In this document: positions 867 to 42,590 of the stretch, piece by piece
How the letters are laid out: each line of letters starts with the position of its first letter
How positions within the stretch are numbered: position 1 is the first letter of the stretch
Source: Porpolomopsis calyptriformis
Taxonomy: Eukaryota > Basidiomycota > Agaricomycetes > Agaricales > Hygrophoraceae
DNA length: 64,000 nt
Reading direction: 5' to 3'
NCBI GenBank assembly: GCA_951640195.1
Contig: OX621171.1
Coordinates: 124,001-188,000, forward strand
Notes under the pieces: model-generated
The model's database searches: none
What the model was told of the DNA's origin: nothing
The model's input: only the letters and a program-made list of their open reading frames with translations
Made by a program: the position numbers and the translations under genes

Positions 867-2192
867 ATGTCCAACAACAACGAACAGACAGACTTCAAGA
901 GTCTGGTCATCAAGCTTCAAGACGCGTCGGTCCTCCGTCCTGGGGGGCCAGAGAGCTCCGGGTACGACACCTGGGTGCTAGAGAATGCGGATCGCGCAGT
1001 AAGTTTTTTGCCTGGTATGTCTGATGCTGGGCTGATCAGTGTGTACAGACAAATTTTCTAGTGAGACTTCCGGAGATGATAGAGGGTGGGGAGGAGATTC
1101 CCTGAGTGGTGGAGGATCTCGCGGAGGAGATAAGTGAGGCGTACGAGAAGCACGGGGAGGAGTGGAAGGTGGAAAGGAAGGCAATGGAGGAGAAGGAGAG
1201 GGCGATAGAGGAAGAGGCGCGGGCCGAGGCAATCGCGGAGGAGAGGTGGGAGGCCGAGGAGGTAGCAGAGAAGACGATGGAAAAGACGGAGGAGGAGAGG
1301 AGGATCGAGGAGGAGGAGAAGGAGAAGCGGGAGCGGGTTGAGTGAGCGAGGGCCCGCTGGGAGAAGATGCTGGGGGCCGGATCGAAGGCATCGGAGGAGC
1401 CTTCGGTCATAACGACAGAGAGGGGAGGAACAGCGACGGAGACGTCGGAGCGGGTCAGGAACGGTGAGGATGAGGTCGGGGCGGGGGAGGAATCGTCGAA
1501 GAAAGGCGGACGGGTCAAATCCACCGTGCAGGTAAGTATGTTTTTATTTCCATAGTGTGTATGATCTAATATACATGTTTTAGTGTCATGAGCCGGCATG
1601 CGACTGCTGCGCCAAGCGGCTGGTCCCATGCATCAAATATCTGGGAGGTGGGGCGTGTGGTCCGTGTGCGCGGGACCACGCGTCGTGTTCGAAGTCCAGC
1701 AGGTCGAAGCGGAAGGCGAGCGTGGAGGTGAAGCTGAGGCAGAAGCAGCCTCCGAAGGCGGTTCTGAGGCCGGTAAGGCGAGTCCAAGGGTCCGGGGAGA
1801 CAAAGGGGAACGTGAGGGAGGTGATGGTGGTGGATTCGGAGGGTGAGGAGGACTGGAGCGAAGACGAGGGTGAGAGCGAGGAGGAGATGGACACCCGTGT
1901 CCGGAAGAGGGCACGGCAGGTGAGTGTGGACAGCGGGATGGTGCGGGAAGGGCACCGGAGGCTCTCGGAGCTTCGGGAGATTGGGGGAAAGATGGAGAAG
2001 GCGGTAGAGGATTGGGCAGTGGGGTTGGAGGAGAAGCGGAACGCGGTCCAGAAGGCCATTATGAGGGAAGCCGAGGCGTTGGAGGGTTGGAGGAGAGCGC
2101 AGGCCAAGATGGACAAGCAGACGGATGGATTGATGGTATGGATGGAAAAGGGGTCAGAAAAGAAGGGGAAGGGAAAGAAATGGGCTATGTAA
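867..2192 (+). pseudogene. Antisense accessory gene of Gypsy-A: coiled-coil Zn2Cys6-like protein
   Basis: A three-exon gene opposite to gag-pol. Exon 1 is 867-998 (ATG; begins MSNNNEQTDFKS), intron 999-1048 (GTAAGT...CAG), exon 2 1049-1531, intron 1532-1583 (GTAAGT...TAG), exon 3 1584-2192. Both introns are phase 0 and about 50 nt, and the joined frame gives about 407 codons. Exon 2 encodes a long Glu/Arg/Lys/Ala-rich coiled coil. Exon 3 opens with a cysteine cluster of spacing C-x2-C-x6-C-x8-C-x2-C-x6-C, which fits fungal Zn2Cys6 DNA-binding domains, followed by basic and acidic stretches and a second helical region. Two in-frame TGA codons (about 1103 and 1342) sit where Arg would suit the coiled coil. 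Genes of like design lie in Gypsy-C and Gypsy-E. DNA binding is inferred from the cysteine spacing only. Confidence 0.75.
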
Positions 2193-2292
2193 TAGTCCTG
2201 TTTAGAATAGAAGAATGGTGAAGAAGTTGGATGAAAATGAGCAAGAGGGTGAGTGCTAAGTGAGACTAAGTAAGGACAAGTCCCGGTATGTG

Positions 2293-5200
2293 TCAGTCAG
2301 TTTCCAAGGATGAATTGGAGTCATCCGAGACATGTCCATCTGGCAAGGAGTTATTCTGTGGGATGATCCGTGTGATCGGGAGTGATGCATGCGAGCGGGG
2401 GAAGTACGGCAGAATGCGGAAGGCAGCAATCGGGAGTTTGGAAACTGCTCCATCAAGTTCCGAAATGATGTAGGCGCCACGGGAGGTTCGTTTCATGATC
2501 AGCATTGGTCCTAGATATCGCGGCTTCGATTTCCGATTGAGTTCCAGTTCGGTTGAAGAGTTGCGGATGAGGACAAGAGCTCTGGGTTTAAAGTTGTAGT
2601 CCCAGATTTACTTTCCGTGGCGTTTCTCGAAATCCCGAATTGATTTAAATCGTGAATCCAGTAATCGTTGCTTGATCTGGGCTAGGTCTTCCTCTCATTT
2701 TTGAAGCTGACAGGCTCGGATAGCCAGTAGATCAGCTGGGGACATCGGGGCATCCATCGGGGGAACTAGGAAGGTAGCCTGGGTGAGATCGAAGGGAAAG
2801 AGAGGATTGGTTCCATAGACTATCTGGTAAGGAGAGAATCCAGTGGATCTTTGAATAGATATGCGTTCTGCCCATAGGACGGAATGATGAACGTTGTACC
2901 ACTTGGATTCGACACCATTGGCAGCTTTCATGAGCGCTTCCCGGACGGATCTATGAGGTCTCTCGATGAGTCCGTTGGCTCGGGAGTTGTATGGGGAGAT
3001 TCGGATGTGATTGATTCTGTATTGCGCGGCGAGGTATTCAAGTGCTTTGATGAATGGGGCTCCATTGTCCGTGATTATCTCTTCAAGAGTACCCCATCGA
3101 CATAGAAGTTCTTTGAAAATGAAGGATCCGATAGCCCTAGCTGATTCCGTTCTCAGCGGGCGCCATTCCGGATAAGCGGAGAGGGAACAGCGGGCATGCA
3201 GAAGGAGTTTATAGCCGTTGGACTTGGGTAGGAACATGGTGTCGATGTGGGCGCGTCGGAATAGGTGAGCAGGTGTGGGAACCATCGGAGGGATGAAGAT
3301 CCATTTGGTTTGGCGGATCTGACATTGATGACAAGTTCGGATGAACCATCGGATGTCGTGATCAATGTAGGGCCACCAGAAGCAGTCAAGTAATCGGTTT
3401 CGGGTGATAAAGGGGCCTTTATGGCCTAGTCTGTCATGAGCCTGCTGGATGATATCCAGTCTGTGAGGTTCCGGGATGGTGAGCTGGTGTCTTCCGTTGG
3501 GTCATTTGCGCTAGAGATGGTTGTTGAATACAAAGAAGTCGGAGGCGGTGCGTAGGAGTTGTTTATATTGTTCGTCCGAGGTGTTGGGTGGGCGTCTTCA
3601 GGTGATAAGAAAGTCGTGAATGGTCTGAAGGTATGCATCTCGCGAAAGGGCTTTTTCCGATTGAGGAAGGGGTAGTGGGCTGTCTGTAGCAGTGAGGACA
3701 GAGAAGGTGGGAGGTTCCGAGAGGTTGTTTAGTGAAGATAGGTAAGGTGATGCAATGTGTGAACGGTTCAGGACGATTTTGAGTCGATTCCAGTTGATGA
3801 GCTCTACCACAAAGGCGTAGGATCGGTCGATCCATTCCTCATGATCATCGTCGGAGGGATCGTCTTCGGGAGTGGGAGGTCTTTGGGACAGTCCGTCAGG
3901 ACCAGAGTGCAAATGGGCAGGAATGTGGACAAGGTCGAAGTCGAATAGGAGGATTCCGGCTATCCATCGGTTGACGGCTGCATTGGGCTGAATGTCCGGA
4001 TTGTTGAGCATGCCTTTAATGTATTTGGCATTGACTTCTACTGTGAATTTCGGAAGACCAATGAGCCATATTCGATATGCCCGGAGGGCACGGAATAGTC
4101 CGTATAGTTCGAGCTTGGCTTGTGAGTATTGGGACTCACGTTTATTCCAGGTAATTGATCCGAATCGGGATGGGTAGCGCTTGCTATCTTCTCCTTGTTG
4201 TTGCAATATGAATCCGGCGGCATACACAGATGAGTCGACGGCTAGAATGACGGGTCATCCGGAGTGGTAATCGATAGGTTTGAGAGCGGGGGAGTTGATG
4301 ATGGCGTTTTTAAGGGTTTCCATGGATTGGATTTCTTCTTCTTCGAAGCGGAAGGGGATGTCCTTTTTGGTGAGATTTACAAGGGGTCGGGCGTGATGCG
4401 CGAAGTCTTTGATGAAGATTCGGAGGACTCCGCAGGTCCCTAAGAAAGATCGGATGTGGGTAAGCTCTTGGCAGATGGGCCAGTCTCGGATCTTCTGTAC
4501 TCGGGATTCGTCCGGAATTCTTCCTTCATAACAGCATATGTGTCCGACGACTACGACAGCGGGGGCACATACTGTGGTCTTCTTTCCATTGAAGGTTCCA
4601 CCGAGGATTTTCATCTGGTGAAGGACTCAGTTGAGGTTGTTGAGATGTTCCCATACGAACCTTCAGATGTGTGGGTTTTGTGGAATAGTCTCGAAGAGTC
4701 CTTCCGGGAGTTCGTAACGGGTTTCCAGGCCTTTAACAGGTACGTCATCTATGAAGGGGCTTGCAACATGAGGGATTTCTGCTTGGAGGATGTGGGTGAC
4801 ATCTCCGTGCATAATTTGTGTTGAGTTGGTATATCCCATAGGGATAGAGGTTAGATGTTTGGCTCCGAGTGGTGTTTGGAAGGTGGTGAGGTCTCGGGAT
4901 CGGAGGTCGAGGTCGCATTGGTCAAAGGATATGAATAGGTCAAGGGACCTGTAGCAGGCTCTTCTGGCGAAGGATTCTGCGAATTGTTCTGTGAGCGGAG
5001 GAACTGCGGAGTTGCGGATTGAGACTTTGTTAAGGGGCTTGAGATCGTGGACAAGTCGGAGAGATTTCCCATCTTTCTTGAGCACGCAGAACCATCGGGA
5101 GCGATAGGATGAGTTAGACTCTTCGTACACGCCAGCGGAAATCTTTTCGCGGATGACTTTAAGGACCGCGTCAAAGATTCCGGGTGGGATTGGAATGTTT

Positions 5201-5976
5201 TTAAGAACCCAAGGGACATGTTCTATAGTGGGGAGGAGGATTGGGTCGAAGAACTCTTCTAGAAAATGACCTTTCTCAGTCTCCTCCCAGGCGAATGCTT
5301 GTTCCTGGGTTTTGATTACGTGGTGTGCAAGGGTTTCTTCTTCGGGCCATAGGAATCCGTCAGGATTGATGTTGTGTTTATCTTTCCGTTCTTGGGTGTA
5401 GACGGAGCCTGGTGTAAATGGCGGTGGATGGAAGGGAAGTGTCGGAAGGTTAGCCAATGGATCGGGGTGTTGACGTCGGATGATGCGGAATTCTTCAGGT
5501 AGCGTTCCCTTGATAGGCAGGACACGGTCCGCTACTTTCTTATATTTCTTTCCAGCGTATGTGGCATGGGTGTAATCATATTCATTGATATCTGCGACAT
5601 AATCAGCTAAGGAAGATTCATGTACTGATACGGGAGTGAGAAGGGAGTCTGGGATGTCGGAGAGAGGGATGTCGAAGGTTGCTGCCTGTCCGCAGGGGTG
5701 ATCATCGTTTAGGTCGTCCTGAGATCGTTCCGATATGCGGGAGCGGATGATGTTGTTCGGGGGAGTCGGGGAAACAGAGGTCGTGTGTGGGGAAACAGAT
5801 ACGTTGTTGGGTGTGGAGGGCGTCGGTGGAATCAAAGTTTGGTAAGAGATGGGACCCGAGAGTACAGATGGAGAAGGTGTGGGAACTGGAACAGGGTTTT
5901 GGGTATAATCCATACTCTCAACATTTAAAAACCCGTGGGGATGAGTTTCTTGTTGGGCTTCCAGGCTCGTGGTCAT
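2293..5976 (-). pseudogene. pol: Gypsy-A pol (RT, RNase H, integrase), broken by stops
   Basis: One continuous minus-strand frame from the ATG at 5976. An N-terminal linker is followed by reverse transcriptase (residues about 150-430) with FIDD at the YxDD site, then RNase H, an integrase H2C2 zinc-binding segment and the DDE core (HIDTMF, ITDNGAP, ANGLIERPH). In-frame stops occur at 4663-4665, 4627-4629, 4255-4257, 3598-3600 and further along. The RNase H motif expected to read EVDAKYIKGM reads EVNAKYIKGM, a catalytic Asp to Asn change; the copy in Gypsy-C keeps Asp. The start codon overlaps the gag-pro stop as ATGA. No chromodomain follows the integrase. Present function is very unlikely. 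Confidence 0.88.
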
Positions 5977-7895
5977 GTAGATACTTTAATCCTCTTTCCG
6001 GTGTTCGGATCCATGATGTTGATATGTTGTGAGCCGTCCGGATCGATCTTGCTATCTAGGTTCATGAGGAGATAGAAAGGCTGTCCGAGAATCATGTCGC
6101 AAGGTAGTTTTTCTGCTACCTGCACCTGCATGTAGAAGGTACAGGGTCCGATGACAACCGGGAGGTTTTTAAGAACTCCTAGGGTGGGGGCGACGGTGGA
6201 GTGTGATGACTCCATGTGCATGATAAGATCGGATTGGATCGGGATACCAAGTCGTTCCCAGACATCTTTCCGAATGACAGTTATCGCGCTTCCGGTGTTG
6301 AGGAGTGCTTCCTCTTTCTGTCTTCCGTCTAGGAGGACGTCGATTACTCGGATGGCGGAAGCGTTGTTGGCTACAATAGTGTCTTTGTCGGGTGAGTTTG
6401 GCGTGGTATAGAAGCTAGAAACAGGGTCGTCTGAGTCATCCGATAGGTTGACGGGGATACGTTTGCTGGTGGTGTGATCTTTGATCCTTTTCCGGACATC
6501 CGAATGTGATGCCAGGAGGTGTCCGACCGTGGTGGTGACAGTGGCTCCAAGGACATTGTTGTAAAGTTGGTCCGTCAGGACTGGATCTTCGGCAGGAGAG
6601 TAGAACCGGAATTGGGGTTCTTTGGGTTGTGGGGTTGGAACGGATTTGATCAGGTTGTGTATGTTAGAAGGCGGGATTTCGATGATGGGTTTTGATGTTG
6701 GTCCAGGTTTGGGAGGAGGGGTTTTCCGGTTCTTGTTTCGTTCTGCCTTTTTGGCGATCTCGTTTCCAAGTATAGTATGGAGGACCGTGAGTGTGTTGTC
6801 GTCTTCAGATGAAGACAGGATATCTTCCGGGAAGAAGGGGAGTGGGGAGGTGGTTGTATCATATGTAGAATGTGGATCTGAGGGGGGAATCATCTCAATG
6901 ATGGCAGCAGTGACGACGGGGGCTGGTGAGGCGAGGTTTCCGGGATTGGCACCATGCCAATTGTTGAATTTCTCTGAGAGGGTGTTGCCAGTGATGTCCC
7001 GAGGGAGGTAGTTGCCGTTTGGGAGAACCATTTGTCTTCGATCATTCCGGATGCACTTCCCAGCTCTTATAAACTCTTCAGCTATAACACATGTCTGGAT
7101 CCAACAATTTGGAGATCTGCAAAAGATGCACGGGTTAGTCTGCTGTTGGGGGCGGGTTTCCGTCAGAGTCGGGTAATTCCGGGGTCGATCGGTTTGGTTT
7201 TTCATCATGGTGGTCATGAGATTTGCCATGGTGATGGTATCACTTGACTCTGTTTTGGGGGTTGTGCGGGATGTGGTGGGGGTGATGGGTGGCAGTGAAG
7301 TGATTGGGGAAGTGGAACAAAGGAGGAACTGGGCGGCATTGTTGATGTCTTTCATGGGATATGGCTCGTCGGGGTGATGATTCGGCATGGTGATGGATAG
7401 TCTGTGTTCGATCCGGCGCAGGGTAGATATTCCGAAGCCTTGGGCAAATAATCTGTCGACGGTCCATTGATCGATCCGGTTGGTCCGTAAAAGGTGGGAT
7501 GAGATCCGGGTGAACTCTCGGAAGTACTCTCCTAGATCGCCTCGGGTGTACACCCCTTTGGAGGTGGTTTCCTGAGTGAATCGTTCGAGGTCCGCAACAT
7601 TGTGCAGGGTGTCATTGGTGTTGGAACTGGGGTAGAGTGTTCAGATGTCGTCTCTGAAGGAGTTCCATGTCCAGGGGTTAGTTACTCCAGGGCAAAGCGT
7701 TTCCCAAAGGAGAGCAACGTCGTTGTCTAGGAAATACAGAGTGTGAGTGATTCGTTCTTCATCAGTAGGGTTCATCCCGAGGGTTGTGTACATCATGTCG
7801 ATGTCGGAGAAGTATCAGTTGAGGTGTGTGGGGTTTCCGTTGAAGACGGGGGCACCGGAAGAGTGTCGGAAAGGTATTCGAGCTGGGTTGGCCAT
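5973..7895 (-). pseudogene. gag: Gypsy-A gag-protease, broken by stops
   Basis: The frame runs from ATG 7895 (MANPARIPFRHSSG) to TGA 5973-5975, with TGA stops at 7815-7817 and 7641-7643; the frame is also open upstream towards the primer-binding site. The gag part has a zinc-knuckle-like C-x2-C-x4-C-x4-C (CIFCRSPNCWIQTC), where the usual His is Cys. The C-terminal quarter is a retroviral-type aspartic protease, but the active-site triad reads NTG (LLNTGSAITV) instead of D-T/S-G. The GAC to AAC change sits in a CpG context. The last base pair of the stop overlaps the pol start, so pol may be made by termination-reinitiation. Confidence 0.85.
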
Positions 7896-8189: not shown

Positions 8190-8193
8190 ATTA

Positions 8194-8738
8194 TGTAGAA
8201 GGCGTGAGGGATCTTGGGGGAGATTCCTCTCGTTCGTCCAAGGGGTATTGGAACACGTAGGAACTTATTCAGTAATCAGATGATGGGGTTTAGGGGTTTC
8301 AAGCTTATCAAGGCTTGATATATTTGGTAGGAAGGGAAGGTATGTATTGGGGAAGGTGTGTGTCTGTCTTCTTTAGTGATTATCTACTTGATATATATAG
8401 AGGAGGTGAATAAAGGAACTTCTTTGTAGGTATGTGTTCAAAGGATAGTTCCTTTGTAAGAATATGTGAGTGGAAATTAGGTAGATAGGTGAAAGGAAGA
8501 TAGGAAAAAGTAGATAAGATAAGGAAAACAAAGAAAAGAGACTTTCCGATCGGTTTGAGGTGTTTCCGAAGGAGTTTGTGGTTTCGGAAGTCCTCCGGTT
8601 AGAGGCGGACAGTATTGGAACGTTTATCGGAAGGTCGGAGGGGTCGAGCTTTTGGGATATGTGTATACAGATTTGGTGAGGTTGAGCTCGTGTGTGATGG
8701 AGAGGTTTGCCGTTCGTAGGGAGAGTGGATCTCCTACA
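8194..8738 (-). repeat. Gypsy-A 5' LTR (right copy)
   Basis: 545 bp, TGTA...TACA, pairing with 185-729. CGG triplets occur at 8585, 8596, 8606, 8628 and 8636, with TGG at 8616, so the array has a period near 10 bp. A T/A-rich stretch with TATATATA lies near 8392-8399. Confidence 0.92.
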
Positions 8739-16024: not shown

Positions 16025-18944
16025 CATGCTAACACTCAACCTGAACCCCCTGACATTTACTCCAACTGAAAGATATATGATCGAACAAATGGAGCTTTTC
16101 GATAAAGCTCACCCCAGAGATTTCCTTTGGCCTCAGGAAAGGGCTCTCCTTCATGATTTCATGAGAAAGCAAGATCTCGCCTTCACCTGGAATGACTCCG
16201 AATGAGGATGTTTCAGATCCGACTTTTTCCCTCCTGTCGATCTCCCAGTAGTACCACATATACCTTGGGTACAAAAGAATATCCCAATTCCCCCAGGTAT
16301 CTACCACAAAGTATGCAAAGTTATCTAGTGAAAAATTGACGCTGGTGTCTACGAACCCTTGAACACCTCCTACCAATCGTGATCACTGCGCGGAGACGCC
16401 AGATTATGGAAGTGGATTATTTGTTGAGAATATGTAAATAATTGTGAGAATATGATGAAAAAATGGAGAGATTATGGATTTTTCATGTTCTTTATAGAAT
16501 GATCAAGTTTTAGCAAGATTACACACATATTCCGGTAATCTTATGTAATCAGTACCGCTTGTTGCAATAGGACGTTTGACAAAAAAAAATGAAATTCACC
16601 CAATTATATTTATATTTGAATATAATTGGTAGCTATCACAGGTGTGTGGTGTATATATAATCTAGAAGTGGTTTTCCTTTTTTTCACATTGTGCTTAAAT
16701 TTACTTTTATCCTCATTCGAACTCACGACTTCTCAGGCTTAACTTAGTTTCACAATATAACCATTGAACTATTTGTGCTCATTATATTGGCCCAAATGTG
16801 CCCATTTGGGGCTTGTCATATTTCAAGTGAAACACTGGTCAGGCAGGGAATGTGTTTGGAATATGACCAGAATATGACCGGAATATATAGATTCCAACAA
16901 GAACATGAAAAATCCATAATCTTGTCATTTTTTCATCATATTCTCACAATTATTTACATATTCTCAACAAATAATCCACTTCCGTAATCTGGCGTCTCCG
17001 CGCAGTGGATGGTTCACCATTCTAAAGAAAGGAGGGAAAGAACTTAGAATCATTCACAGTCTCGAACCACTCAATCAAGTTACAATTCGACACTCAGGAG
17101 TCATGCCAATTCCCGAACACTTGGCCAAACAGTTTGGCAGTTGATCCTGCAGTGCTATGTTCGATCTTTACATCGGATATGACAAACAAGTGATTGCACC
17201 TTCATCTCACGATCTAACCACATTCCAAACACCCTATTGGGCTTATCAACTAGTTACCCTACCCATGGGATGGACCAACTCTGTGCCTGTTTTTCACGAC
17301 AACATCACCTATATCCTCTAACTAGAGATTCCTGAGTTTATGATCCCCTACATCGATGATATCCCTGTGAAGGGTCCCATGACTTGATATGTATTACCTG
17401 ATGGATCCTACAAAACGATTCCTGAGAACGATGGAATTCGACGATTCATGTGGGAACACTTCTGGAATCTCAATCGAATAGTCCAGCGAATGAAATATTG
17501 CGGCGGAACCATGTCAGGCTATAAATCATTCTTATGCACAGAAGAAACCACCATTCTTGGATATCAATGTACTCATTTAGGATGACTACCCAACAAATTG
17601 CGTGTCTCAGCAATCTGAAACTGGGGTCCTTGTAAAGACCTCTCCAAAGTTTGAGCCTTCCTTGGCACTATTGGCATCATTTGGATTTTCATTTGCAACT
17701 TTGCGCATCAAGCACACCACCTAGTCAAGCTCACTAGGAAGGATATGCCCTTTGAATTTGGTCCCGATCAGCTTGCTGCCCAAGAGGACCTAAAACAAGC
17801 CCTTCTAGAATCGCCTACTCTATGAGTTCTCAATTATACTTCTGATGCCCCTGTCATACTCACCGTTGACACCTCCTATATCACTGTTGGCTTTCATCTC
17901 TGCCAATGCAATCCTGACAACCCGAAGAAATGGTACTATAATCATTTCAGTTTGATCACATTGAACGATTGAGAAAGAAGGTTCTCTCAGCTGAAACTCG
18001 AAATCTATAGTCTCTATTGAGCCTTGCAATCGCTCTGACTATACCTTATCAGCATTCGGAACCTTATCATAGAAGTTGATGCTTGCTATATCAAAGGAAT
18101 GCTAGCGAACCCAGACATTGCACCCCAGGCTAGTATTAACAGATGGATTGTAGCGATCCTAATGTTCCATTTTACCTTGGTACATGTCGCTGGTTCAAAC
18201 CATGGTCCTGACAGTCTCTCTCGACATCCCTGACAGCCCGATGACTAAGATGATGAAGAACCGATCGATAAAGACTTCAATGATTGGATCGATCGCATTC
18301 ACAGATTAATGCACCATATCAATGATTCACCCGCACCCCAAACAAAAACCCTCCAATTGCCCACCTCTGTTTACTCACAGAGTAAACATTTCAGTAAGGA
18401 GGAGGAGGACCCTATCCATCCACGTATTGATTCCTACAACATCATTCCATGATCAGAAGCAGCTCAGCAAGATGATTGACAACTTATCCTCATTCAAAAA
18501 TGGCTCTCAGATCTCAAATGACCAAGCAACATGTCCAACAGCAACTACGCAAGTTTCATATGATACTGCGAAGAGTTCTATATCAACAACCATTGACTAT
18601 GGTGAAAAGATAGACAAGGTGCTCACAAATTAGTCATCGATCCGGATTGCCAATTAGTGATCATGACAGAACTTCACGATTGAACAGGTCACAAGGCTAT
18701 CTTTGCTACTTGATCAATCGTTTCTGAATGTTTCTAGTAGCCCCATATAGCCCCTAACATAGTCTGGTTCATTTGGATGTGTCATACCTGTCAGCTCCAT
18801 CAAACCACACAAGCCCTTGTCCCTCCGACTGTCTCCACGCCAGCTCCCCTGTTCACCAAAATCTACATCAACATGATGCATATGCCCCGATCCAGTCCAT
18901 TTCAATATATAGTCCAAGGGCGATGCTCCCTTACACACTATCCC
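16025..18944 (+). pseudogene. pol: Gypsy-C pol, part 1 (RT, RNase H, integrase N-terminus)
   Basis: Starts mid-RT (DFLWPQERALLHDF aligns with the Gypsy-A RT). After the MITE at 16384-17007 it continues through YIDD (about 17352), the RNase H segment IIEVDACYIKGML, and the integrase zinc segment (CHTCQLH near 18783). It stops at CSLTHY, where Gypsy-D is inserted. At least 15 in-frame TGA, TAG or TAA codons are present. Its retained EVDA motif shows what Gypsy-A lost. Confidence 0.82.
16384..17007. mobile_element. Non-autonomous CACTG-ended MITE (CACTA/CMC-like), 624 bp
   Basis: Near-perfect terminal inverted repeats of about 113 bp begin CACTGCGCGGAGACGCCAGA. The insertion is flanked by the 3-bp duplication GAT (16381-16383, 17008-17010). 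Excision rejoins the RT codons exactly as in Gypsy-A (YQS-stop-WFTILKKG against YRSRWFCVLKKDG). CACTG ends plus a 3-bp duplication fit the CMC superfamily. No transposase is encoded. Confidence 0.88.
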
Positions 18945-19356
18945 TGTCACAGATGTAAATTTTCATTTCCTCTCTATGATCAGTCATTACTGCTTAGTCA
19001 GACAGGTCTTATCTCTACTTGGGATTCCCCACAATTCTGTATCTTTTCATATACCCGAGATAGGACACATTTCATTTCCGACAATCATGTTTCGTCTCTT
19101 CACATGCTCCGAGTCCTTTATTATGTTTATCTTTACTCGTCACATGTAGTCCTCATGTACTCTTCATGTACTCCTCGTGTTTATACTGACTCATCCGCAG
19201 TAGCGTAGTTAGTATATAAACCCCTAGTTAGTCATACTCAGACTTTAAGTCTGATTCCTTGTTAGCAACCCAATAACTAGGACTTGAGACATTATCATCG
19301 TCTTGGGACAGAGCTCTCCGAAGTAAAACCATCTCATCGATAACCAGTTTATAACA
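18945..19356 (+). repeat. Gypsy-D 5' LTR
   Basis: 412 bp. It contains TGACTCA (19187-19193), TATATAAA (19213-19220) and, 34 nt after the TATA start, AAGTCTGATTC (19247-19257), the likely transcript 5' end that is complementary to the PBS. Confidence 0.93.
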
Positions 19357-19357
19357 A

Positions 19358-19368: not shown

Positions 19369-19413
19369 CCTTCTTGCTCTCTCCCCCTTATTTGATCCAC
19401 CCTTGCTTTAACA

Positions 19414-24626: not shown

Positions 24627-24795
24627 CTCATTTGTCATCATTTCAGCTGTCCATTTTTGAATTCTATTTTTAGGTCGAGTAGGCGTTTATAAACTCAGAA
24701 TCGTCGATACGATTCCATCCAGTCTTTCCCCACTTTTGACGAACCTACCCAATACCATTGTTCCTAACACTAACATCGCTGAATCATCGTTCATA

Positions 24796-25533
24796 ATGCC
24801 CGCCACTCGATCTCCCTCTCCTCAAGTTGCCATCAGACGCGCTGGACGAATCCCCTCGTCCGCCGCCATCCGTTCCCCTACCCCCGGTCCCTCCACCTCT
24901 TCCTCCTCCACTCGACAACTACGTCGACAAGCTCGCGCGCACGCAGAAGACTTCTTCAAGGAATACCCTACGGAGACTCCTCCTCCTGAAGATCCCGCCG
25001 TCACCATCTCGCGCCTCACGGTTCACAGTAATAGCGTCAGCAACTGGAACCGAGAACTTCGACAAGAGCGCGATGTCTTGAAAGCCAAGCTCAAAGCATC
25101 AGAGAGGAGTGCCCTATATTGGAAGAACCGCTGGGACGAAAGTGAGCTCAAAGTTTGGGAGCTCCAATGACAGAAGAAGCATACATGGGTCGATTGCTAC
25201 GACGTCACCACCCGCGCCATCATCGTCAAGCTCGTAGAGGAGAGTCGTCAAGCTGAACAACTCTCCCGAGAAGATTTTCTCCGAGCTCAGCAAGACCTTG
25301 CGACGACAGAGACCATAATCAATTACAGTGCGTCAGTCGAGTACCCCATCAACCTCGACTTAGAATACCCGGACGACGACGACGTCAAGACAATCCGAGC
25401 CCCTTCCCCCATCGAAGCGGCTTCGAAAGCTGTCCCCATCGCTTCCCTCTCAGTGGTCATCGAGGCCCCCACTGGTGAGGAAATCCAGACTCAGGCCTTA
25501 GAGGACGAAACGCCCGACACCGCCCAGATTTGA
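24796..25533 (+). pseudogene. Gypsy-D third ORF (sense strand), coiled-coil protein of unknown function
   Basis: ATG 24796 (MPATRSPSPQVAIRRAG) to TGA 25531-25533, with one internal TGA at 25168-25170. It lies between pol and the 3' LTR in the sense direction. The Ser/Pro/Thr-rich basic N-terminus is followed by a predicted coiled coil (WNRELRQERDVLKAKLKASE), a conserved core (CYDVTTRAIIVKLVEES) and an acidic tail with DLDLEYPDD. The Gypsy-F copy is closely similar at protein level and the same DNA length (738 bp). No known domain is recognised; it has no signal peptide or membrane segment, so it is not env-like. How it is translated after pol is unknown. Confidence 0.75.
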
Positions 25534-25567
25534 AATTCGGGTCGAATTTCCCGAAAAACGAGGTGTA

Positions 25568-25990
25568 TGTCACGGACGTAAATTTTCATTTCCTCTCTAT
25601 GATCAGTTATTACTGCTTAGTCGGACAGGTCTTATCTCTACTTGGGATTCCCCAGGGATTCCCCACAATTCCGTATCTTTTCATATACCCGAGATAGGAC
25701 ACATTTCATTTCCGACAATCATGTTTCGTCTCTTCACATGCTCCAAGTCCTTTATCATGTTTATCTTTACTCGTCGCATGTAGTCCTCATGTACTCTTCA
25801 TGTACTCCTCGTGTTTATACTGACTCATCCGCAGTAGCGTAGTTAGTATATAAACCCCTAGTTAGTCATACTCAGACTTTAAGTCTGATTCCTCGTTAGC
25901 AACCCAATAACTAGGACTTGAGACATTATCATCGTCTTGGGACAGAGCTCTCCGAAGTAAAACCATCTCATCGATAACCAGTTTATAACA
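25568..25990 (+). repeat. Gypsy-D 3' LTR
   Basis: 423 bp, preceded by GAAAAACGAGGTGTA (polypurine-like). It carries the same TGACTCA (25821-25827) and TATATAAA (25847-25854) as the 5' copy. Differences from the 5' LTR include CpG transitions near the start. Confidence 0.93.
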
Positions 25991-26882
25991 ATCCCAAATT
26001 TCAAATGCTTCATTTGGAAACAGCGAAATCGATTGGCAAATGGATCTTTGAGGATATAATCTGTCGCTGGGGCTCTCTTCGAGAAATCATCATGGACAAT
26101 GGAACAGCCTTCTTAGGAGCTGTAGATCACCTCGCCAAGCGCTATTGGATCAACCACATTTGCATCAGCAGATACAACTCTTGCGCAAATGGGATAGTCA
26201 AACAATCTCACTTCGACGTATGACAATTGCTATTCAAAGCTGTCGATGGCGATCAGAAGCAATGGTCAATCAGAGCCTACTCTGTATTTTGGGCTGAGCA
26301 TATCACTACCCAAAAGCGATTGGGATGCTCACCCTACTTCGCTATCACTGGATCTCAGCCATTGCTACCTTTAGATATTTCCAAAGTGACATATCTCCTT
26401 CCCGCTCCAGATTCGGTTCTCTCAATGACTGATCTAATTTCACAATGCACGATTGCTGTACAGAAATGAGATGCTGACTTAGAGCAACTTCAATCGAAGG
26501 TTCCACTGCTCACCTACAGTCCGCTGTTCGATTCGAGAAAAGACATGAGAAAACCATTTGCAACTACAACTTCAAAACTGGCAATCTCATACTCATTTGG
26601 AACACGAAAATCGAGAAGTCTCTCAATCGGAAGATGCATCCTCAATACCTAGGACCCCTAGTCATTATATCCCGAAACCTAGGAAAAGCTTATATCATCA
26701 CAGAACTTGACGGATCCATCTTACATCACCCAATTGCTGCATTTAGAGTCATCCCATACTTCGCCCAAAGATCGATCGCAATTCCCAAATGATTCCTTGA
26801 TATATTGACTTCACGACTTAGAGAGATGGAACATTCGCTAGCTAGCAAACCACTTGACAGTGTTGCGATTGAGGACTTGTAA
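25991..26882 (+). pseudogene. pol: Gypsy-C pol, part 2 (integrase core and tail)
   Basis: Resumes exactly where part 1 stops once Gypsy-D and one ATCCC are removed. It includes CRWGSLREIIMDNGTAF (second catalytic Asp) and CANGIVKQSHF, where Gypsy-A has ANGLIERPH, so the catalytic Glu reads Lys. The tail contains ELDGSILHHPIAAFRVIPYF, matching the Gypsy-A C-terminus. Stops at about 26221 and 26467 and a frameshift near 26500-26550 break it. Confidence 0.8.
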
Positions 26883-27010: not shown

Positions 27011-28601
27011 CTACAATTGGTCTAAGACCATTTCCTCTTCCTTTTCTTCCAACCCCCTGTATATCTCTTTGAGAATGACAATCCGCGCCTTTACATGCGC
27101 TTTCTCCTCCATGATTGCCGCCAACACCTCTCGCGATTTCTCTTCATTGGCCGCCTTCACCTTCACCTTCCCTTTCTGACCCACAATCAGCCACATTGTT
27201 TCCTTCAAACTCTCGCCTGCTGTCTCCTCCTCGAAAGGTGGCATCTCATTGATATAGACTACCAGACCTATAGAGAGAGAAGATTAGAAAAGAAAAAGAA
27301 TTTACTTATGAGACACAGCCCTTGCCAATTTCCGAACCCCCTTCAATGATTCTCCCGCCATCGCTGATTTCTGAACCCCCTTCGATGATTCTCCTGCCAT
27401 CGCCGACTTGTTCGCACCCTTCAACTCTGCCTTGGGCTGCAGTTTGTACTTCTTCCCCAGATGAGTCTCCCCCTTCCATGCTTATCCATTACGCACTTGG
27501 CGCATAACGGATCGGCAGGGTCGATTTCACATTCTGCACTGACCTTTTTGCAAAAATCACACTGCAAAATAAAGAAGTCCATTAGTAAAACAAAAATAAA
27601 AAAATAGAAAAAGAGAAACTTACTTTGCCCTCAACCAGGCGCAAAGTTTCCTCTATCGCCTTTCTCTTGTAGTACTCCCACATCATCATCACCAGAAGGG
27701 AATGTCCCTTCTCCACTATCCTCTCCTGATACGCCACCTTCTACCTCTCGACCTCATCTTCTGCAGTTAGCAATTGCGCTACTGCCACCAACTCTTCTTC
27801 ACCATCCAGGGGCTAATGCCCATCCTCTGTTATCTCCGTCATCGCCCCCGTCATGTCTGGCATGTCTGCTGACACCTCCGCTGCCTTTGTTCCACCTTCA
27901 CCTGCTGCCTTTTCTGTCTCTCGACAGAACTCCTCCTTGTCGATCTTTCCATCCATAAGTAACTGGAGGAGCGTCTCATAGGCTTCCTCTACCTGCTTCT
28001 GGCCCTCCGCATCCTGTTCCTCCCATACCTCTCACTCCTGCTTCTCTCGCACCTCCTGTTCCACCCTCTCAACCCACTCATGCTCCTCTCGCTTCTCTCA
28101 TTCTTCGCGCTCTGCTCACTCTCATTCCTCTCATTCCTCGCGCTCGACCCTCTCTTGTTCCTCCCATGCAGAGGCCTCTGCCCTCTCCCTCGCCTCACGT
28201 TCTTCTTCTGCCCTTCATTCCCACTTGACCCTCTCCACCTCCGCTTTCTCCTTGACCTCTCGATGCACCACCTCTGCTAATCTTGGCATTAGCAGCTCCC
28301 CAGCCCACCCCAACCATTCCCATTCTTCAAAAACATTGAAAGTCTTGTGGGCCTCCTTTTGCCATGCGACGACTTTGTCGTCCATCAAGGTTTCTTGCAG
28401 GGCCTTCACAACCTGATTATACGCAATCTAAGAGATAGATTAGTGAAAGAAAATGATTAGAAAAACAAAAAAACTTACCAGCAATTTGCAAAATTGTTGC
28501 CCCCAGACTTTATAGTCTTCAGGTTCGGCAACTCCATCCAGGAGCGACCTCATCTGGTCACAAATCTTCTATTTCGCGATGGTTATCATGTTCTTTGACA
28601 T
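27011..28601 (-). pseudogene. Antisense accessory gene of Gypsy-C: coiled-coil Zn2Cys6-like protein
   Basis: Minus-strand spliced gene between pol and the 3' LTR. Exon 1 is 28601-28479 (ATG, MSKNMITIAK), intron 28428-28478; exon 2 is 28427-27624, intron 27562-27623; exon 3 starts at 27561; a last exon near 27270-27011 ends in a charged helix (LEEKEEEMVLDQL). Exon 2 is a Glu/Arg-rich coiled coil with clustered TGA codons replacing Arg. Exon 3 opens, at the same exon border and phase as in Gypsy-A, with C-x2-C-x6-C-x8-C-x2-C (CDFCKKVSAEC...CAKC); the sixth Cys is not at the expected place. A 33-bp tandem duplication lies near 27332-27400. The gene is inactive, but its architecture matches the Gypsy-A gene. 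Confidence 0.7.
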
Positions 28602-28767
28602 TTTTGAGTGACTTGATGCGGATTCTTGACATCGTGGTATACAATTTAAAGATGGTTGTATCTGAAGATGAATGTGACACACTTGTCACACTTATAAACA
28701 TGCCTCGGCAATTACCAGCAAATCACATGATTGACTGAGGACAGTCAACATTTCAGTGAGGAGGAGA

Positions 28768-29377
28768 TGATACGACCCCTCTATCCTCTGAGCACCATAT
28801 ATTCAACTATATGAATACTAGACACCTATCAAGTCCTTCAAATATGAACTCAAACCCTCCAAATGCCCCTGAAAGCTCCCAAACGTCCTGAATGAGTTCA
28901 AGATTCATTAAACTCTCTGAACGCAATCAAAGCTTTCCAAATGCGAATGAAAGTTTGTATATCAAAGGGAAGACACTATTCAAAGGTATCAGTTCTCTTC
29001 TATTTCTCCCTTTTCATTTGACTTCTTCATTCCCATTCACTACTTTCCCCTTAGATTATTAGAGAGGCTCCCCTTTTATCATACACATTCAAAGGGATCC
29101 TTGTACTAGAAGATATATATACTGTATGTTGTAGCTAGTGATCCAACAAGTTAGATATTTGCTTCTCTCTTGCTCTTAAGTCTAGACCCCCCCTAAGACT
29201 CCTCCTCGACTCCCCCTTCCACCCTTCCAATCCTTCCGATTCCCCAATTGATCACATTTGTGAATGATCAAAGACTTCCTTTCCATGATCATTGATCATA
29301 GACTGTGTCAAGACTCTTTATAGTCATCCTTGCACCTTGTTCTGTGTTCAGTTCTCATACATGAAGCAGACGTATCA
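28768..29377 (+). repeat. Gypsy-C 3' LTR
   Basis: 610 bp with the 7-bp inverted ends TGATACG and CGTATCA, preceded by the purine tract GAGGAGGAGA. It faces an inverted copy at 29703-30306. Confidence 0.8.
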
Positions 29378-29702: not shown

Positions 29703-30306
29703 TGATATGTCTGCTTCATGTATGAGAACTGAACACAGAACAAGGTGCAAGGATGACTATAAAGAGTCTCGACACAGTCTATGATTGATGATTGTGGAAA
29801 GGAAGTCTTTGATCATTCACGAACGTGATCAATTGGGGGATTGGAAGAATTGGAAGATCGAAAGAGGAAGTTGAGAGGAAGTCTTAGAAGATCTAGACTT
29901 GAGAGCAAGAGAGAAGTGAATATCTAACTTGTTGAATCACTAGCTACAACATACAGTATATATATCTTCTAGTACAAGGATCCCTTTGAATGTATATGAT
30001 AAAAGGGGAGCCTCTCTAATAATCTAAGGGGAAAGTAGTAAATGAAGAAGTCAAATGAAAAGGGAGAATTAGAAGAGAGATGATGCCTTTGAAAAGTGTC
30101 TTCCCTTTGATATACAAACTTTCATTTGTGTTTGGAAAGCTTTGATTGTGTTCGGAGAGTTTGATGATTCTTGAACTCATTCGGAACATTTGGGAGCTAT
30201 CGGGTGCATTTGAAGGGTTCATGTTCATTTTCGAAGGACTTGATAGGCATCTAGTATTTGTATAGTTGAATATACAGTGGTCAGGGGACAGAGGGGTCAT
30301 ATCAAT
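29703..30306 (-). repeat. Second copy of the Gypsy-C-type LTR, inverted
   Basis: 604 bp, TGATATG...CATATCA on the minus strand, similar over its full length to 28768-29377. No gag or PBS follows it inwards, so it is a solo LTR or the end of another element. Confidence 0.75.
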
Positions 30307-31298: not shown

Positions 31299-31900
31299 TC
31301 ATCTGTTGGGCTCATCAGAAGTGTGAAGGTTGAGGAACAGTGACTGGGGTTGTGGTGAAAATTCAGGTATCTGCTCAACTAGCTCGTCAAGGGGAAATAG
31401 ATCTATCCAGTGAGCCATAGGCTCTGGTGGGACCTCTGGAATGAGACTGTTCATTGACTGGGAGCTGTGCAAATACAGTGTGGTCCTGTCATGAGACTGA
31501 GGAGAATTTTCAGGAGAGCACATATCAGGGGATGGTAGAGGAACATTGATTGATACAGTATTCACACCATGTGGTGTCACTGGCATTTTCTGTGATGCAG
31601 CTGGGGATACTGTCATTTTCAGCATAACAGGGGGGTGAAGGTCTAGAAACAGTGATTCCAGTTGCAGTGAATGCTCAGGTATTGGCCCCACTATCTCATT
31701 GAGGGGATATAGGCCTATCCAGTGAGCTATAGGCTCAGGTGGTACCTCTGGGATGAGACTGTTCATTGGCTGGGAACTGTCTAAATACAGTGTGGTCCTG
31801 TCATGAGACTAAGGGGCATTGTCAAGAGAGCAAACAGTGGGAGCTGGTGGAGGAGGAACATTGATTGATGTGGTATTTACTCCATGTGGTTCCACAGGTG
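31299..31900. repeat. 312-bp tandem repeat, two copies
   Basis: Landmarks recur exactly 312 bp apart (ATGAGACTGT at 31441 and 31753; CCTGTCATGAGACT at 31485 and about 31797). 312 is a multiple of three, so the coding tail is duplicated in frame. Confidence 0.8.
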
Positions 31901-32495: not shown

Positions 32496-32871
32496 TGTCA
32501 CAGTTGTAATTCTTCTTCTTTCCTTTATCTTATCTTGGGAATCCCCACATTCTTTCATTGGGATTCCCCATTGCCTTTCTCTGGGATTCCCCATTACTCT
32601 ATCCATATGCAGACACTTTTCATTTCCGTTATGTCTCAACCCCTTATGATTCATCATCAATCACGATGACTCATCCCTTATCTCTTACACATGTTATGTT
32701 GCACTGACTCACACAGATAAGTAGTCAGTATATAAAGGGTACCTTTGTACATATCAGACCTTAAGTCTGATTCCTCGTTAGCTACTCATAATAAGGACTT
32801 AGAACAATACCTTCATCTCTTGGGACAGAACACCTGAAGTAAAACACATTCTAAACAACCGGTTTATAACA
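32496..32871 (+). repeat. Gypsy-F 5' LTR
   Basis: TGTCA...TAACA. TGACTCA at 32705-32711, TATATAAA at 32729-32736 and AAGTCTGATTC at 32763-32773 (34 nt after the TATA start). Confidence 0.92.
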
Positions 32872-38014: not shown

Positions 38015-38175
38015 TTCTATTCATTCATTTGTCATCATACCATCTGCCAAGAATTGACCTCTATTTTTAGAATCACTCCTTATAAACTACAAGACGTCTC
38101 CACTTTCCTTCACGATTCAATAACTTTGTTGCAATGGTCAAGACCACTCAACTAAAACGTTGCAATAACTTCATC

Positions 38176-38913
38176 ATGCCTACTACACGATCCACACAAT
38201 CCCCCTCCCCTCAAGTTGCTATCTGATATGCAGGACAAATCTCTCCATCCCACCTCCGATCCCCCACTCCTGGTCCCTCCACCATTGTTTCTTCTCCTCG
38301 ACAACTGCATCGACAGGCTCACCCCCATGTGGAAGACTTCTTCAAAGGATAAACCCCTCCTCCTGAAGATCCCACTGTCACTATCTCCCATCTCACGGTT
38401 CACAGCAACAGTGTCAGCAACTGGAACCAAGAACTTTGTTAGGAGCGCAATGCCCTGCAAGCTGAGAACAAGTCATTATGAGAAAGAATCGCATACTGGA
38501 AGAACCATTGGGATGAAGGTGAACTCAAACTTTGGGAGCTCCAGCAACAGAAGAAGCAAATGTGGGTAGACTGTTACGATATCACCACCCGCGCCATCAT
38601 TGTCAAGCTCATGGAAGAGAGTTATCAAGCTGAACAGCTCACCAGGGAAGATTTCCTCTGGTCTCAGTGAGATCTCGCAATGAGAGAGACGCTGATTGAA
38701 TATGGAAAATCAGTCAAACACCCCATCGACCTTGATTTGGAATACCCGGATGACAACAATGACGTCACGACAGTCCGAGCCCCCTCCCCAGTCGAAGCAA
38801 CTTCAGAAGCCGAACTCATCGCTTCCCCCTCAGTGGCTGTCGAGGCCCCCGCCACTGAGGAAATCCTGACCCAGGCCTCAGAGAACGAAACAACCGACAC
38901 CGCCCAAGTTTGA
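38176..38913 (+). pseudogene. Gypsy-F third ORF, homologue of 24796-25533
   Basis: ATG 38176 (MPTTRSTQSPSPQVAI) to TGA 38911-38913. It shares the coiled-coil core, CYDITTRAIIVKLMEES and LDLEYPDD with the Gypsy-D copy. Stops lie near 38224, 38348, 38438, 38478 and 38668. Protein-level similarity is kept across both copies while the intervening DNA diverges, supporting a once-functional element gene. Function unknown. Confidence 0.72.
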
Positions 38914-38948
38914 AATTCAGGATGAATTTCCTTTGAAGCCGAGGTGTA

Positions 38949-39346
38949 TGTCATGGTTGTAATTTTTCTTCTTTCCTTTATCTTATCGTATGCAAACCTG
39001 TATCTTATCTTGGGAATCCCCACATTCTTTCATTGGGATTCCCCATTGCCTTTCTCCAGGATTCCCCATTACTCTATCCATATGCAGACACTTTTCATTT
39101 CTGTTATGTCTCAACCCCTTATGATTCGTCATTGATCACGATGACTCATCCCTTATCTCTTACATATGTTATGTCGCACTGACTCACGCAGATAAGTAGT
39201 CAGTATATAAAGGGTACCTTTGTATGTATCAGACCTTAAGTCTGATTCCTCGTTAGCTACTCATAACAAGGACTTAGAACAATACCTTCATCTCTTGGGA
39301 CAGAACACCTGAAGTAAAACGCATTCTAAACAACCGGTTTATAACA
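38949..39346 (+). repeat. Gypsy-F 3' LTR
   Basis: 398 bp with a 22-bp insertion (GTATGCAAACCTGTATCTTA...) relative to the 5' LTR. TGACTCA at 39180 and TATATAAA at 39204 are retained. Confidence 0.92.
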
Positions 39347-40985: not shown

Positions 40986-41024
40986 AGATAAAGCTTACTG
41001 GTTATGCTTAGGTAAACAATAAGT

Positions 41025-41489
41025 TTACATCCCACTCCTGCTTATACCAGATTGCCCTAATACATTGGTTCTATGCATATCCTGGTATTGAGCAAAGTGT
41101 GATAACTTAACCCCAACCCTTACATTGATGGAGATAGACCTTGTTATTCTGTCCCATTTGATTTTGAACCCTAGGAACCAGTGGATCTCACCCATGTCTA
41201 CAAGTTTGAAGTGGCCACTAAGGCCTTGCTTGAATTCGTTTACTGCCAGGGTGGATGATCCAGCTATGGCCATGTTGTCTGTGGCTACTGTAACAATAAC
41301 CTTGCTACTGAGTTCGCATTTGAAGAATACGGAGTAGTCAATGCTTGACTGGCAGTATCCCATCACATAGAATGCTGCAGCGAGGGTCTTATACTATTCA
41401 TGTCTGGCCTGCTTCAGCCTATACATGGCTTTGAGGAATCAACAAACTTCCCTTCTTCCCCAGGTTTCAAGACTCCTTTTGGCAGCTTC
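41025..41489 (-). pseudogene. Copia RT, C-terminal part
   Basis: Resumes after Gypsy-E with LPKGVLKPGEEGKFV and MYRLKQARHE, then DYSVFFK. The site normally reading YVDDLLIAG reads VATDNMAIAG, so the catalytic motif is lost. HFKLVDMGEIHWFLGFKI follows. Ends at TGA about 41025. Confidence 0.82.
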
Positions 41490-41745
41490 TGTTAGGTCTG
41501 AAGTTTTGGAGTTGATTTCAGAGATTGGAGTTAGATAAACGACAGGACTTAGTTGATATTCTGTTTACAGATACAGGGAAAAAATGCAGTACTTATATAC
41601 CTGCTAGATAATTATATCTGAGACATAGTGACGACAGAGGACGTCATAAGTAGGAAACATGTGAAAAGTACGGAGTGTTCGGAGTTGTTGGAGTAATCGG
41701 CGTTCATCGGAATTCATCGGAGTTTGCCGGAACTGGGATGTAATA
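41490..41745 (-). repeat. Gypsy-E 3' LTR
   Basis: 256 bp. CGG triplets at 41671, 41680, 41698, 41708, 41718 and 41728, and TGG at 41689: a regular 9-10-bp array at the U3 end. Confidence 0.94.
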
Positions 41746-41819
41746 GTATCTCCCTCTTAATGGGCGAGCCCTCAAGACCGCATATTGGACTTGACCATAT
41801 TTGGTAATGACTAAGAAAT

Positions 41820-41882
41820 CGGAGTTTCGGAATGTGGCAGATTTCGGAGAATCATCGGAGTTTGAAATCGGAACATATATAA
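41820..41882 (+). promoter_or_regulatory. Putative promoter of the Gypsy-E antisense gene
   Basis: CGG triplets at 41820, 41828, 41845, 41856 and 41869 lead into a TATATA box (about 41875-41882), 34-40 bp upstream of the ATG at 41916. CGG is the usual half-site of fungal Zn2Cys6 proteins, so autoregulation is a possible reading. Confidence 0.5.
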
Positions 41883-41915
41883 TGAGGTCCAGTGGATCAC
41901 TCTTCTTCATTAACA

Positions 41916-42590
41916 ATGCCCACTCACAATGAAATCCAAGCTCAACTCGCACAGCTCCAAGTCCTGCTCAAAAATGAAGAACAACGAGAACGCAAGGAAG
42001 CAGAGAAAGAAGCGGAGGAGGCCTGGAGGATGGAGGAAGAGCGCCAGTTGGCAGAGGAGCGATGGGCGGCTAGAAAGGCGGCCAAAGCTGCAAAAAGGGA
42101 GGCAGCAAGGAGGGCGAAGGAGGCGGCTCGAACAGCGGAGCAAGCGGAGATGATGGAGATGATGGCGGAGGAAAGATCAGGGTGGCAAGAGGCCTTGATC
42201 AGAAGGCCGTAAGTACTTTCTTTTTTATCCGCTTTATTCCGAAGTTGACCGGAATTCATTAGGAGGGCTCCGTGCGAGCCTTGCATCAGGAAAGGGAGCA
42301 CAGAAGAATGCATGTGGCTGACCGGACAGGGGAAGGCCCAGAGTTGTACCACCTGCCAACAGGTAAAGGCCAAATGCTGGGTTGGGGAAGAACTAGCAAA
42401 AAGGAAACGCATCCAGAGTACCACGGAGGAACCAGAACACGGAGGAAAGAGGCGACGAGGGAATGCGGAGTCATCAGAGAAGGCAAATTTGAGGGAGGAG
42501 TTGCAAGGGGTTCGGGGGGAGATGAGGAAGATGAGGATGGAGATGAAGAGAATGAGGGAGTCCATGGAGAGGACTGAGGAGCTGCTATAA
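41916..42590 (+). CDS. Antisense accessory gene of Gypsy-E: coiled-coil Zn2Cys6-like protein, intact
   Basis: Two exons: 41916-42208 and 42263-42590, joined across a 54-nt GTAAGT...TAG intron, giving 206 residues without any stop. Residues about 5-95 form a Glu/Arg/Ala-rich coiled coil (MPTHNEIQAQLAQLQVLLK...). The second exon begins with the cysteine cluster C-x2-C-x8-C-x11-C-x2-C-x6-C (CEPCIRKGSTEEC, then CTTCQQVKAKC), followed by basic KRKR and GGKRRRG (possible nuclear signals) and a C-terminal amphipathic helix rich in Met/Arg/Glu. The layout is that of a small sequence-specific regulator: DNA-binding cluster plus dimerising helices. The first ATG downstream of the TATA box is used. The host pol is broken while this frame is open. 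Binding to DNA is inferred, not shown. Confidence 0.72.

Follow-up and report, generated by a model that had tools for sequence, protein, structure and literature searches.

What is the nature of a gene that lies inside a retrotransposon and runs against its pol gene? This question is raised by a stretch of 64,000 nucleotides from the basidiomycete Porpolomopsis calyptriformis (GenBank assembly GCA_951640195.1, contig OX621171.1, positions 124,001 to 188,000; the whole stretch is called the window hereafter). Gypsy elements lie nested in the window, and their long terminal repeat (LTR) pairs were found by self-comparison. Three of them, designated A, C and E, possess an extra gene between the end of pol and the 3' LTR, always on the strand opposite to pol, a placement already given in the initial annotation of the window and borne out here. 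The distance from the ATG to the inner edge of the LTR is 132 nt in A, 167 nt in C and 164 nt in E. We found that two Gypsy lineages carry, beside the 3' LTR and on the other strand than pol, a heritable protein-coding gene which is kept by purifying selection. The parts of the three genes are located in the window as follows:

41916 to 42208, plus strand: gene E exon 1, charged coiled coil
42209 to 42262, plus strand: gene E intron, GTAAGT...TAG, 54 nt, phase 2
42263 to 42590, plus strand: gene E exon 2, C-x2-C-x8-C-x11-C-x2-C-x6-C, basic patches, predicted C-terminal helix
736 to 866, plus strand: gene A leader, alignable to the leader of gene C
867 to 998, plus strand: gene A exon 1, from MSNNN to ENADRA
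1049 to 1531, plus strand: gene A exon 2, coiled-coil-like, with two in-frame TGA (1103, 1343)
1584 to 2192, plus strand: gene A exon 3, six-cysteine cluster C-x2-C-x6-C-x8-C-x2-C-x6-C, basic region, acidic stretch and C-terminal part
28602 to 28767, minus strand: gene C leader, containing TTTATAAG
28479 to 28601, minus strand: gene C exon 1
27624 to 28427, minus strand: gene C exon 2, coiled coil, with stops in the window copy
27306 to 27561, minus strand: gene C exon 3, cysteine cluster without the sixth cysteine in the window copy; downstream end approximate, set by eye
27011 to 27267, minus strand: gene C putative exon 4; acceptor approximate, set by eye

Searches for further copies covered the host genome (33.5 Mb, 17 contigs), and some of the copies counted are near-duplicates that occur on both contig C1 and contig C9. 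For gene E there were 161 exon matches, with at least 78 loci among the matches listed, and for gene A 26 matches at 22 loci. For gene C we obtained 79 matches of exon 2 at 78 loci and 94 matches of the cysteine exon at E-values up to 1. Wherever a pol end was found near the gene it was on the opposite strand and never on the same one (E, 29 of 29 in 30 loci; A, 23 of 23 in 26 loci; C, 25 of 25 in 30 loci). An LTR was located upstream of the gene in all 30 fetched loci of E, in 18 of 26 of A and in 25 of 30 of C; the loci fetched for strand and LTR counts partly overlap one another. Starting from pol, gene E was found within 2 kb of at least 58 of 66 pol ends of type E (identity of 75% or higher), and gene A within the same distance of 16 of 18 pol ends of type A (identity of 77% or higher, one split pol match included). 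The antisense gene is present in most element copies, as counted for the E and A families. A lack of copies in other elements had been named at the outset as grounds for giving up the proposal; such copies exist in the host genome, so no refutation comes from this side.

Gypsy elements of other lineages are also present, some 38–42% identical to E in the surveyed pol segment. Beyond A, C and E the gene survey comprised B and D of the window, where open reading frames (ORFs) of 60 amino acids (aa) or more on the minus strand at the corresponding place showed no six-cysteine pattern when inspected by eye. A third Gypsy lineage related to A is represented by two near-identical loci (L088:484-1985 and L089:469-1970), in which neither a six-cysteine pattern nor a six-cysteine antisense gene was seen. 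These two loci have open pol-end frames of up to 1425 aa and sense ORFs after pol, including ones of 194 and 239 aa.

Gene E is open in the window and encodes 206 aa. Gene A consists of three exons separated by introns of 50 and 52 nt. In gene C the introns measure 51 and 62 nt and a fourth exon is probable; the window copy of C is dead, with many stops and a frameshift. As read from conserved splice sites and a conserved frame, the genes are probably spliced. Across 30 copies of gene E the donor is GTAAGT in 25 and ATAAGT in 5, and the acceptor is TAG in all 30. The intron before the cysteine exon of gene A reads GTAAGT...TAG in all 17 aligned loci (18 tried), and introns 1 and 2 of gene C were located in 21 modelled copies (25 tried), with the frame of exon 2 kept in 17 of the 21. 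The introns would survive retrotransposition because, relative to the genomic RNA, they are in antisense orientation. An intron directly before the cysteine exon in the same phase, as proposed initially, was found for A and C (phase 0); E differs with phase 2.

The cysteine spacings of all three genes were found as first described. The absence of the last cysteine from the C cluster is true of the window copy and reflects its decay, not the gene type: the sixth cysteine is present in 20 of 28 fetched C-type cysteine exons, and these relatives read C-x2-C-x6-C-x8-C-x2-C-x6-C, identical to A. Of the eight exons lacking it, four come from two places, the window locus and a near-duplicate of it, both of which were fetched twice. 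The idea that type C as a whole has lost its sixth cysteine was therefore rejected. In gene E, cysteines 1 to 6 are kept in 29, 29, 29, 29, 27 and 29 of 29 other copies, and the mean conservation of the cysteine columns is 0.989 compared with 0.911 over all columns. An acidic, serine-rich C-terminal tail occurs in all seven other E copies inspected for it and is missing from the window copy. Hydrophobic-acidic stretches were seen in A relatives (VTVVDSEGEED, gene A 1805-1880) and in the tail of E relatives such as L020 (EEEMPIRDVEIVPL); we take both to resemble SUMO-interaction motifs.

Selection among copies was assessed by the ratio of nonsynonymous to synonymous substitution rates (dN/dS) with the NG86 method. 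For gene E the ratio was 0.272 in exon 1 and 0.176 in exon 2 (26 of 30 rows; L002, L005, L010 and L012 were dropped). Exons 1 and 2 of gene A gave 0.202 and 0.334 (12 copies) and exon 3 gave 0.286 (9 copies); these are 12 and 9 of 26 loci, the rest being partial, disrupted or repeats of one copy. The cysteine exon of gene C gave 0.152 in 20 of 28 copies, after removal of the duplicates or disrupted copies L057, L058, L059, L069, L072, L073, L079 and L080. The alignments A1 and A2 consist of stop-free rows only. dN was smaller than dS in 66 of 66, 64 of 66 and 36 of 36 pairs for the three exons of A and in 189 of 189 pairs for the cysteine exon of C. A six-frame control was carried out for gene E (exon 2, 25 rows, L022 also dropped): the annotated frame gave 0.177 and four frames gave 0.78–1.06, while the opposite frame sharing wobble positions gave 0.29. 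Indels in the coiled coil of E keep the reading frame. A 207-aa ORF on the sense strand overlaps gene E in the window; it was rejected as a gene, as any sense frame is open in 0 of 25 copies and dN/dS is lowest in the antisense frame. In summary, the antisense gene in A, C and E is under purifying selection, which is frame-specific in E. On selection and on conservation of the cysteines the initial annotation thus held up, with ratios of 0.15–0.33 and cysteines largely kept.

Do the three genes belong together? The reverse transcriptase (RT) pieces of A and C are 65.9% identical over 85 aa and their gag-protease regions can be aligned, whereas element E is a separate lineage nearer to B, D and F. 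A and C form one element group and E another, and we therefore deal with two cases, not three. Full-length profiles of genes A and C compared by hhalign align on the cysteine cluster with P = 0.00035 at a probability of only 37%; the cysteine exons alone gave P = 0.063. Both genes have intron 1 at the same position (Y-x2-W-x8-intron, phase 0), and a local alignment of their leaders scored 49, a value reached by 0 of 1000 shuffles. On the profile match, the position of intron 1 and the leader alignment, the A and C genes are best read as homologous. The leaders of A and C also both carry TCA(C/T)GTGATTT together with the palindrome TGTGACA...TGTCAC, conserved in the copies inspected; these may be a second site for a regulator. 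For E, a proven homology to the others was rejected, since full-length profiles gave P = 0.34 for A and E and P = 0.044 for C and E. Of the single gene design suggested initially, the part concerning A and C would stand, and E is left without a convincing profile match to either. The sequences point to at least two histories of the gene or to one old exchange, and the data do not decide between these.

The LTR of E and the leader between it and the antisense ATG contain three conspicuous features:

41671 to 41730, plus strand: phased CGG array in the U3 of the E LTR, with CGG at 41671, 41680, 41698, 41708, 41718 and 41728
41820 to 41871, plus strand: gene E leader, with five more TCGGA sites within 52 nt
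41876 to 41882, plus strand: TATATAA, 40 nt before the antisense ATG and identical in 27 of 27 other copies

The seven U3 array sites of E are spaced by 9, 9, 9, 10, 10 and 10 nt. They include site 41689, which is TGG in the window copy and CGG in 7 of 27 others. When the 12 sites of E were followed in 27 copies, 312 of 324 cells contained CGG or its CpG-decay products TGG or CAG. CGG was intact in 188 of 324 cells (58%), compared with fractions of 0.04–0.67 at other nearby CpGs. Since the array was noticed by eye before counting, ranks of 5-mers by enrichment are the fairer test. In the LTR and leader of E, TCGGA ranks 2 of 259 5-mers; in those of A, CGGAA ranks 2 and TCGGA ranks 4 of 316. 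TCGGA ranks 32 of 247 in B and is absent in D, and ranks between 21 and 118 in the C copies analysed and 180 in the window C LTR. CGG is the classic half-site of Zn2Cys6 proteins. Paired CGG triplets are the typical target of those that have been studied well, according to the accessible text of PMC5559640.

With the coding gene established, the best explanation appears to be an element-encoded antisense regulator which acts on its own LTR, and we consider the chances for and against it evenly balanced. The antisense transcript would arise from a promoter in the interval from the 3' LTR to the ATG, with TATATAA as the candidate in E. The product would be a small protein with a coiled coil and a cluster of six cysteines binding two zinc ions; it would enter the nucleus, bind DNA as a dimer and act on the U3 and leader of its own element. 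For the E protein the likely target would be the phased CGG array, and occupancy of this array might tune both sense transcription from the LTR and the protein's own antisense promoter. A further-reaching version is tentative and in our view more probably wrong than right: two distant fungal Gypsy lineages would have gained, each on its own or by exchange, an antisense zinc-cluster regulator with introns which binds the CGG arrays of its own LTR, a counterpart of HBZ or VANC by which the element controls its expression or escapes silencing, with target arrays co-evolving with the protein. We marked this version down on account of the mildly raised CGGA count in the control LTR of B.

A number of results weigh against a regulator of this kind, beginning with the identity of the cluster. 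The Zn2Cys6 spacing is C-x2-C-x6-C-x(5-12)-C-x2-C-x(6-8)-C; A and C relatives fit it exactly, and the first half of E has x8 and not the canonical x6. Against the Pfam Zn_clus profile, 16 of the 19 E exons matched weakly and below threshold (E-value 0.28 at best), and the window E copy scored 8.2 bits where the cut-off is 21; 0 of 14 C exons matched, and neither did the window exon 3 of A. A scan of the genome with the Zn_clus model yielded 21 sites, none of them at the listed places of the A, C or E genes. The profile search suggested by the initial annotation therefore never reached the gathering score and direct membership in Zn_clus (PF00172) was rejected, so that Zn2Cys6 membership, read from the cysteine spacing, is unproven. 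The structure models are too weak to claim a fold: that of the C cysteine domain has a mean predicted local distance difference test (pLDDT) score of 52, and that of E has a mean of 61 with values of 47–58 across the cluster. No match to the E model was found by Foldseek in the PDB. On the side of the regulator, a C-terminal helix (residues 68–107) is predicted in the E model after the cysteine and basic segment, with a block of pLDDT 74–94 from residue 71.

Decay and base composition also speak against the regulator. Internal stops are absent in only 8 of 30 E loci and most copies are broken, and a maximum-likelihood codon model of E exon 2 (27 rows) gave an omega of 0.399 and finally 0.347, a weaker constraint that is still below 1. 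CGG motifs are not significantly enriched in the LTRs and leaders of C that were analysed, and a CGG array as a feature of all three elements was rejected for this reason. CGGA is enriched in pol as well, with 116 against 57 expected in A and 67 against 28 in E, while no such enrichment was found in pol of B and D. The control LTR of B, an element without such a gene, has 6 CGGA where 2.6 are expected, an excess reached by 7 of 300 shuffles. CGGA is therefore neither promoter-specific nor wholly specific to gene-bearing elements.

The enrichment in pol of A and E, absent from B and D, weakens a reading confined to the promoter, and a VANC-like anti-silencer might show the same. Such a protein would bind repeated short motifs along its own element and remove or block DNA methylation or heterochromatin, and would not be a classical transcription factor. 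VANC targets are often tandem repeats which vary between related transposable elements, as far as the consulted part of PMC5735166 goes, and E has a phased direct CGG array. Most substitutions between copies of E exon 2 are C-to-T or G-to-A, and more than half of these fall in CpG, which makes methylation a plausible pressure on the copies. The array sites are kept no better than nearby CpGs, which counts against anti-silencing; we consider this VANC-like role unlikely but deserving of attention. The highly charged coiled coil, the cysteine cluster and the basic patches would also fit RNA binding, as in a particle component, nucleic-acid chaperone or nuclear-import accessory which serves the retrotransposition cycle by binding RNA or cDNA and not transcription. 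Nuclear transport and roles like those of retroviral accessory proteins are discussed for plant antisense genes in the part of PMC7264820 available to us. An antisense mRNA with its own promoter would be an odd route to a particle component, however, and the gag of E already has a CCHC-like knuckle of its own (46374-46559); we regard this as rather improbable.

Two further explanations would do without a functional protein. Antisense RNAs and silencing by double-stranded RNA are discussed as possible regulation of retroelements (PMC7264820, accessible text), and the transcript itself could matter by way of double-stranded RNA or transcription interference, with the ORF being incidental. Selection on the coding frame largely refutes this: the low dN/dS, frame-specific in E, the frame-keeping indels, the conserved introns and the near-invariant cysteines make it very improbable. 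Chance or decayed ORFs, arising from overlapping frames on biased sequence or from a one-off capture of a host gene, could be suspected from the broken window copies of A and C and from the long sense-strand ORF over gene E. Tens of copies share splice sites and frame, however, and the sense ORF is not open in any of the copies compared. Chance is refuted for E and, with dN below dS in nearly all A and C pairs, we give it hardly any credence overall.

Relatives of the gene were sought by database searches. Gene E as query gave 0 of 5101 candidates in the protein database at an E-value of 0.001, and the C cysteine region gave 0 of 17 at an E-value of 10. The RT of A, used as a control query, gave 796 matches, and among the 120 listed the three with species names were from Leucocoprinus, Sparassis and Grifola, which are agaricomycetes. 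Fungi are thus in the database, but a fast-evolving spliced gene can be missed, and the empty protein searches say nothing on distribution. Scans of viral_contigs yielded no relative, and sequence searches of the PDB gave one coil match for E at an E-value of 5.3 and none for C. Our searches revealed no host homologue, but none of them was set up to rule one out. Of the proposal of a captured or long-standing element-encoded regulator, the long-standing, element-encoded, antisense gene with six conserved cysteines stands, while capture from the host found no support. Agaricomycete gene sets may hold many short cysteine-rich hypothetical proteins of similar look, in which case the gene family may be common and unnamed.

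The elements that carry these genes, and their neighbors in the window, are arranged as follows:

185 to 729 and 8194 to 8738: LTR pair of element A, 96.5% identical; 3' LTR at 185 to 735, minus strand
2296 to 7640, minus strand: gag-pol pieces of element A, with a Pfam aspartic protease match on 5973-7553
16026 to 26879, plus strand: pol pieces of element C, broken up by a palindromic insert (16384-17007) and Gypsy-B (18944-25991)
18945 to 19357 and 25568 to 25991: LTR pair of element B, from self-comparison
28768 to 29377, plus strand: 3' LTR of element C
32522 to 32871 and 38997 to 39346: LTR pair of element D, from self-comparison
41489 to 41743 and 47632 to 47886: LTR pair of element E, 95.3% identical; 3' LTR at 41489 to 41752, minus strand
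42673 to 47447, minus strand: gag-pol pieces of element E, with an end that we take to be chromodomain-like from its motif

Element E is bounded by a 5-bp duplication, GCTTC. Element C is nested, its pol starting upstream at about 16026 and being split by Gypsy-B. The palindromic insert lies inside its RT and has 117-nt arms which are 94% complementary. A second C-type LTR, inverted, is located at 29703-30304, 325 nt from the LTR at 28768-29377 and 88.6% identical to it. B (24661-25530) and D (38155-38990) have a common coding region on the sense strand, placed after a chromodomain-like pol end and before the 3' LTR; its frame is open in B and broken in D. A direct repeat of about 227 nt, 79% identical and with 312-nt spacing, was found at 31316-31854. 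On a larger scale, many element copies at the start of C9 (the window is C9 124001-188000) and in C1 at 3.2-4.04 Mb pair as near-identical inverted neighbors whose positions sum to about 4.10-4.11 Mb. This suggests an uncollapsed haplotype or a large segmental duplication.

The closest known systems are other LTR elements with antisense genes. Boty-like elements of Botrytis cinerea carry the antisense gene brtn (Zhao et al. 2011, as reported in the accessible parts of PMC7264820, PMC8365987 and PMC4227169). Like A, C and E these are fungal LTR elements with an extra gene antisense to gag-pol between pol and the 3' LTR; unlike them they reside in an ascomycete, and the descriptions in these parts mention no introns, cysteine cluster or promoter array. 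The comparison with brtn was made by description. Antisense ORFs of plant elements (Grande gene23, RIRE2, Retand TRP28) are likewise located between pol and the 3' LTR and occur in most copies, but belong to other protein families, with no Zn2Cys6-like cluster in the parts of the descriptions consulted. The Grande antisense protein is nuclear and TRP28 is predicted to bind DNA (PMC7264820, PMC11963269, accessible parts), and the same parts of these sources state the roles of antisense genes in Gypsy elements as unknown.

Among regulators, Gal4-type Zn2Cys6 proteins (PF00172) have the canonical six-cysteine spacing seen in A and C, and E would share with them CGG repeats and a predicted coiled coil after the cluster. 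They differ from the genes described here in that the latter have no Pfam match at the cut-off, that E is spaced x8/x11 and that fold and binding are putative. The order of zinc module, linker and coiled-coil helix in Gal4, as given in the accessible text of PMC5559640, resembles that of the E model. HBZ of human T-cell leukemia virus type 1 (HTLV-1) is a bZIP protein of a retrovirus, and no sequence relation to it is expected. It has a spliced form, and VANDAL of Arabidopsis, which encodes VANC, is of another transposon class than Gypsy. As in the regulator proposed here, HBZ is made from an antisense transcript from the 3' LTR and is a nuclear regulator of its own provirus (PMC11963269, in part). 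VANC resembles the present case as a protein encoded by a transposable element with tandem short motifs in the element (PMC5735166, in part).

In the portions of the open-access PMC literature consulted, we found no fungal retrotransposon described as carrying an antisense gene for a zinc-cluster-like protein. Plant Gypsy elements and the fungal Boty are already known to have antisense genes, and the zinc-cluster-like protein would be the new feature. The antisense introns, which are not removed from sense RNA, are a clean marker for such genes in other genomes. Here the antisense gene shows the cysteine pattern of a metal cluster and a coiled coil, and in E also a conserved TATA box next to a phased array of matching half-sites; a single purified domain and a single DNA probe would thus suffice for a direct test of the regulator hypothesis.

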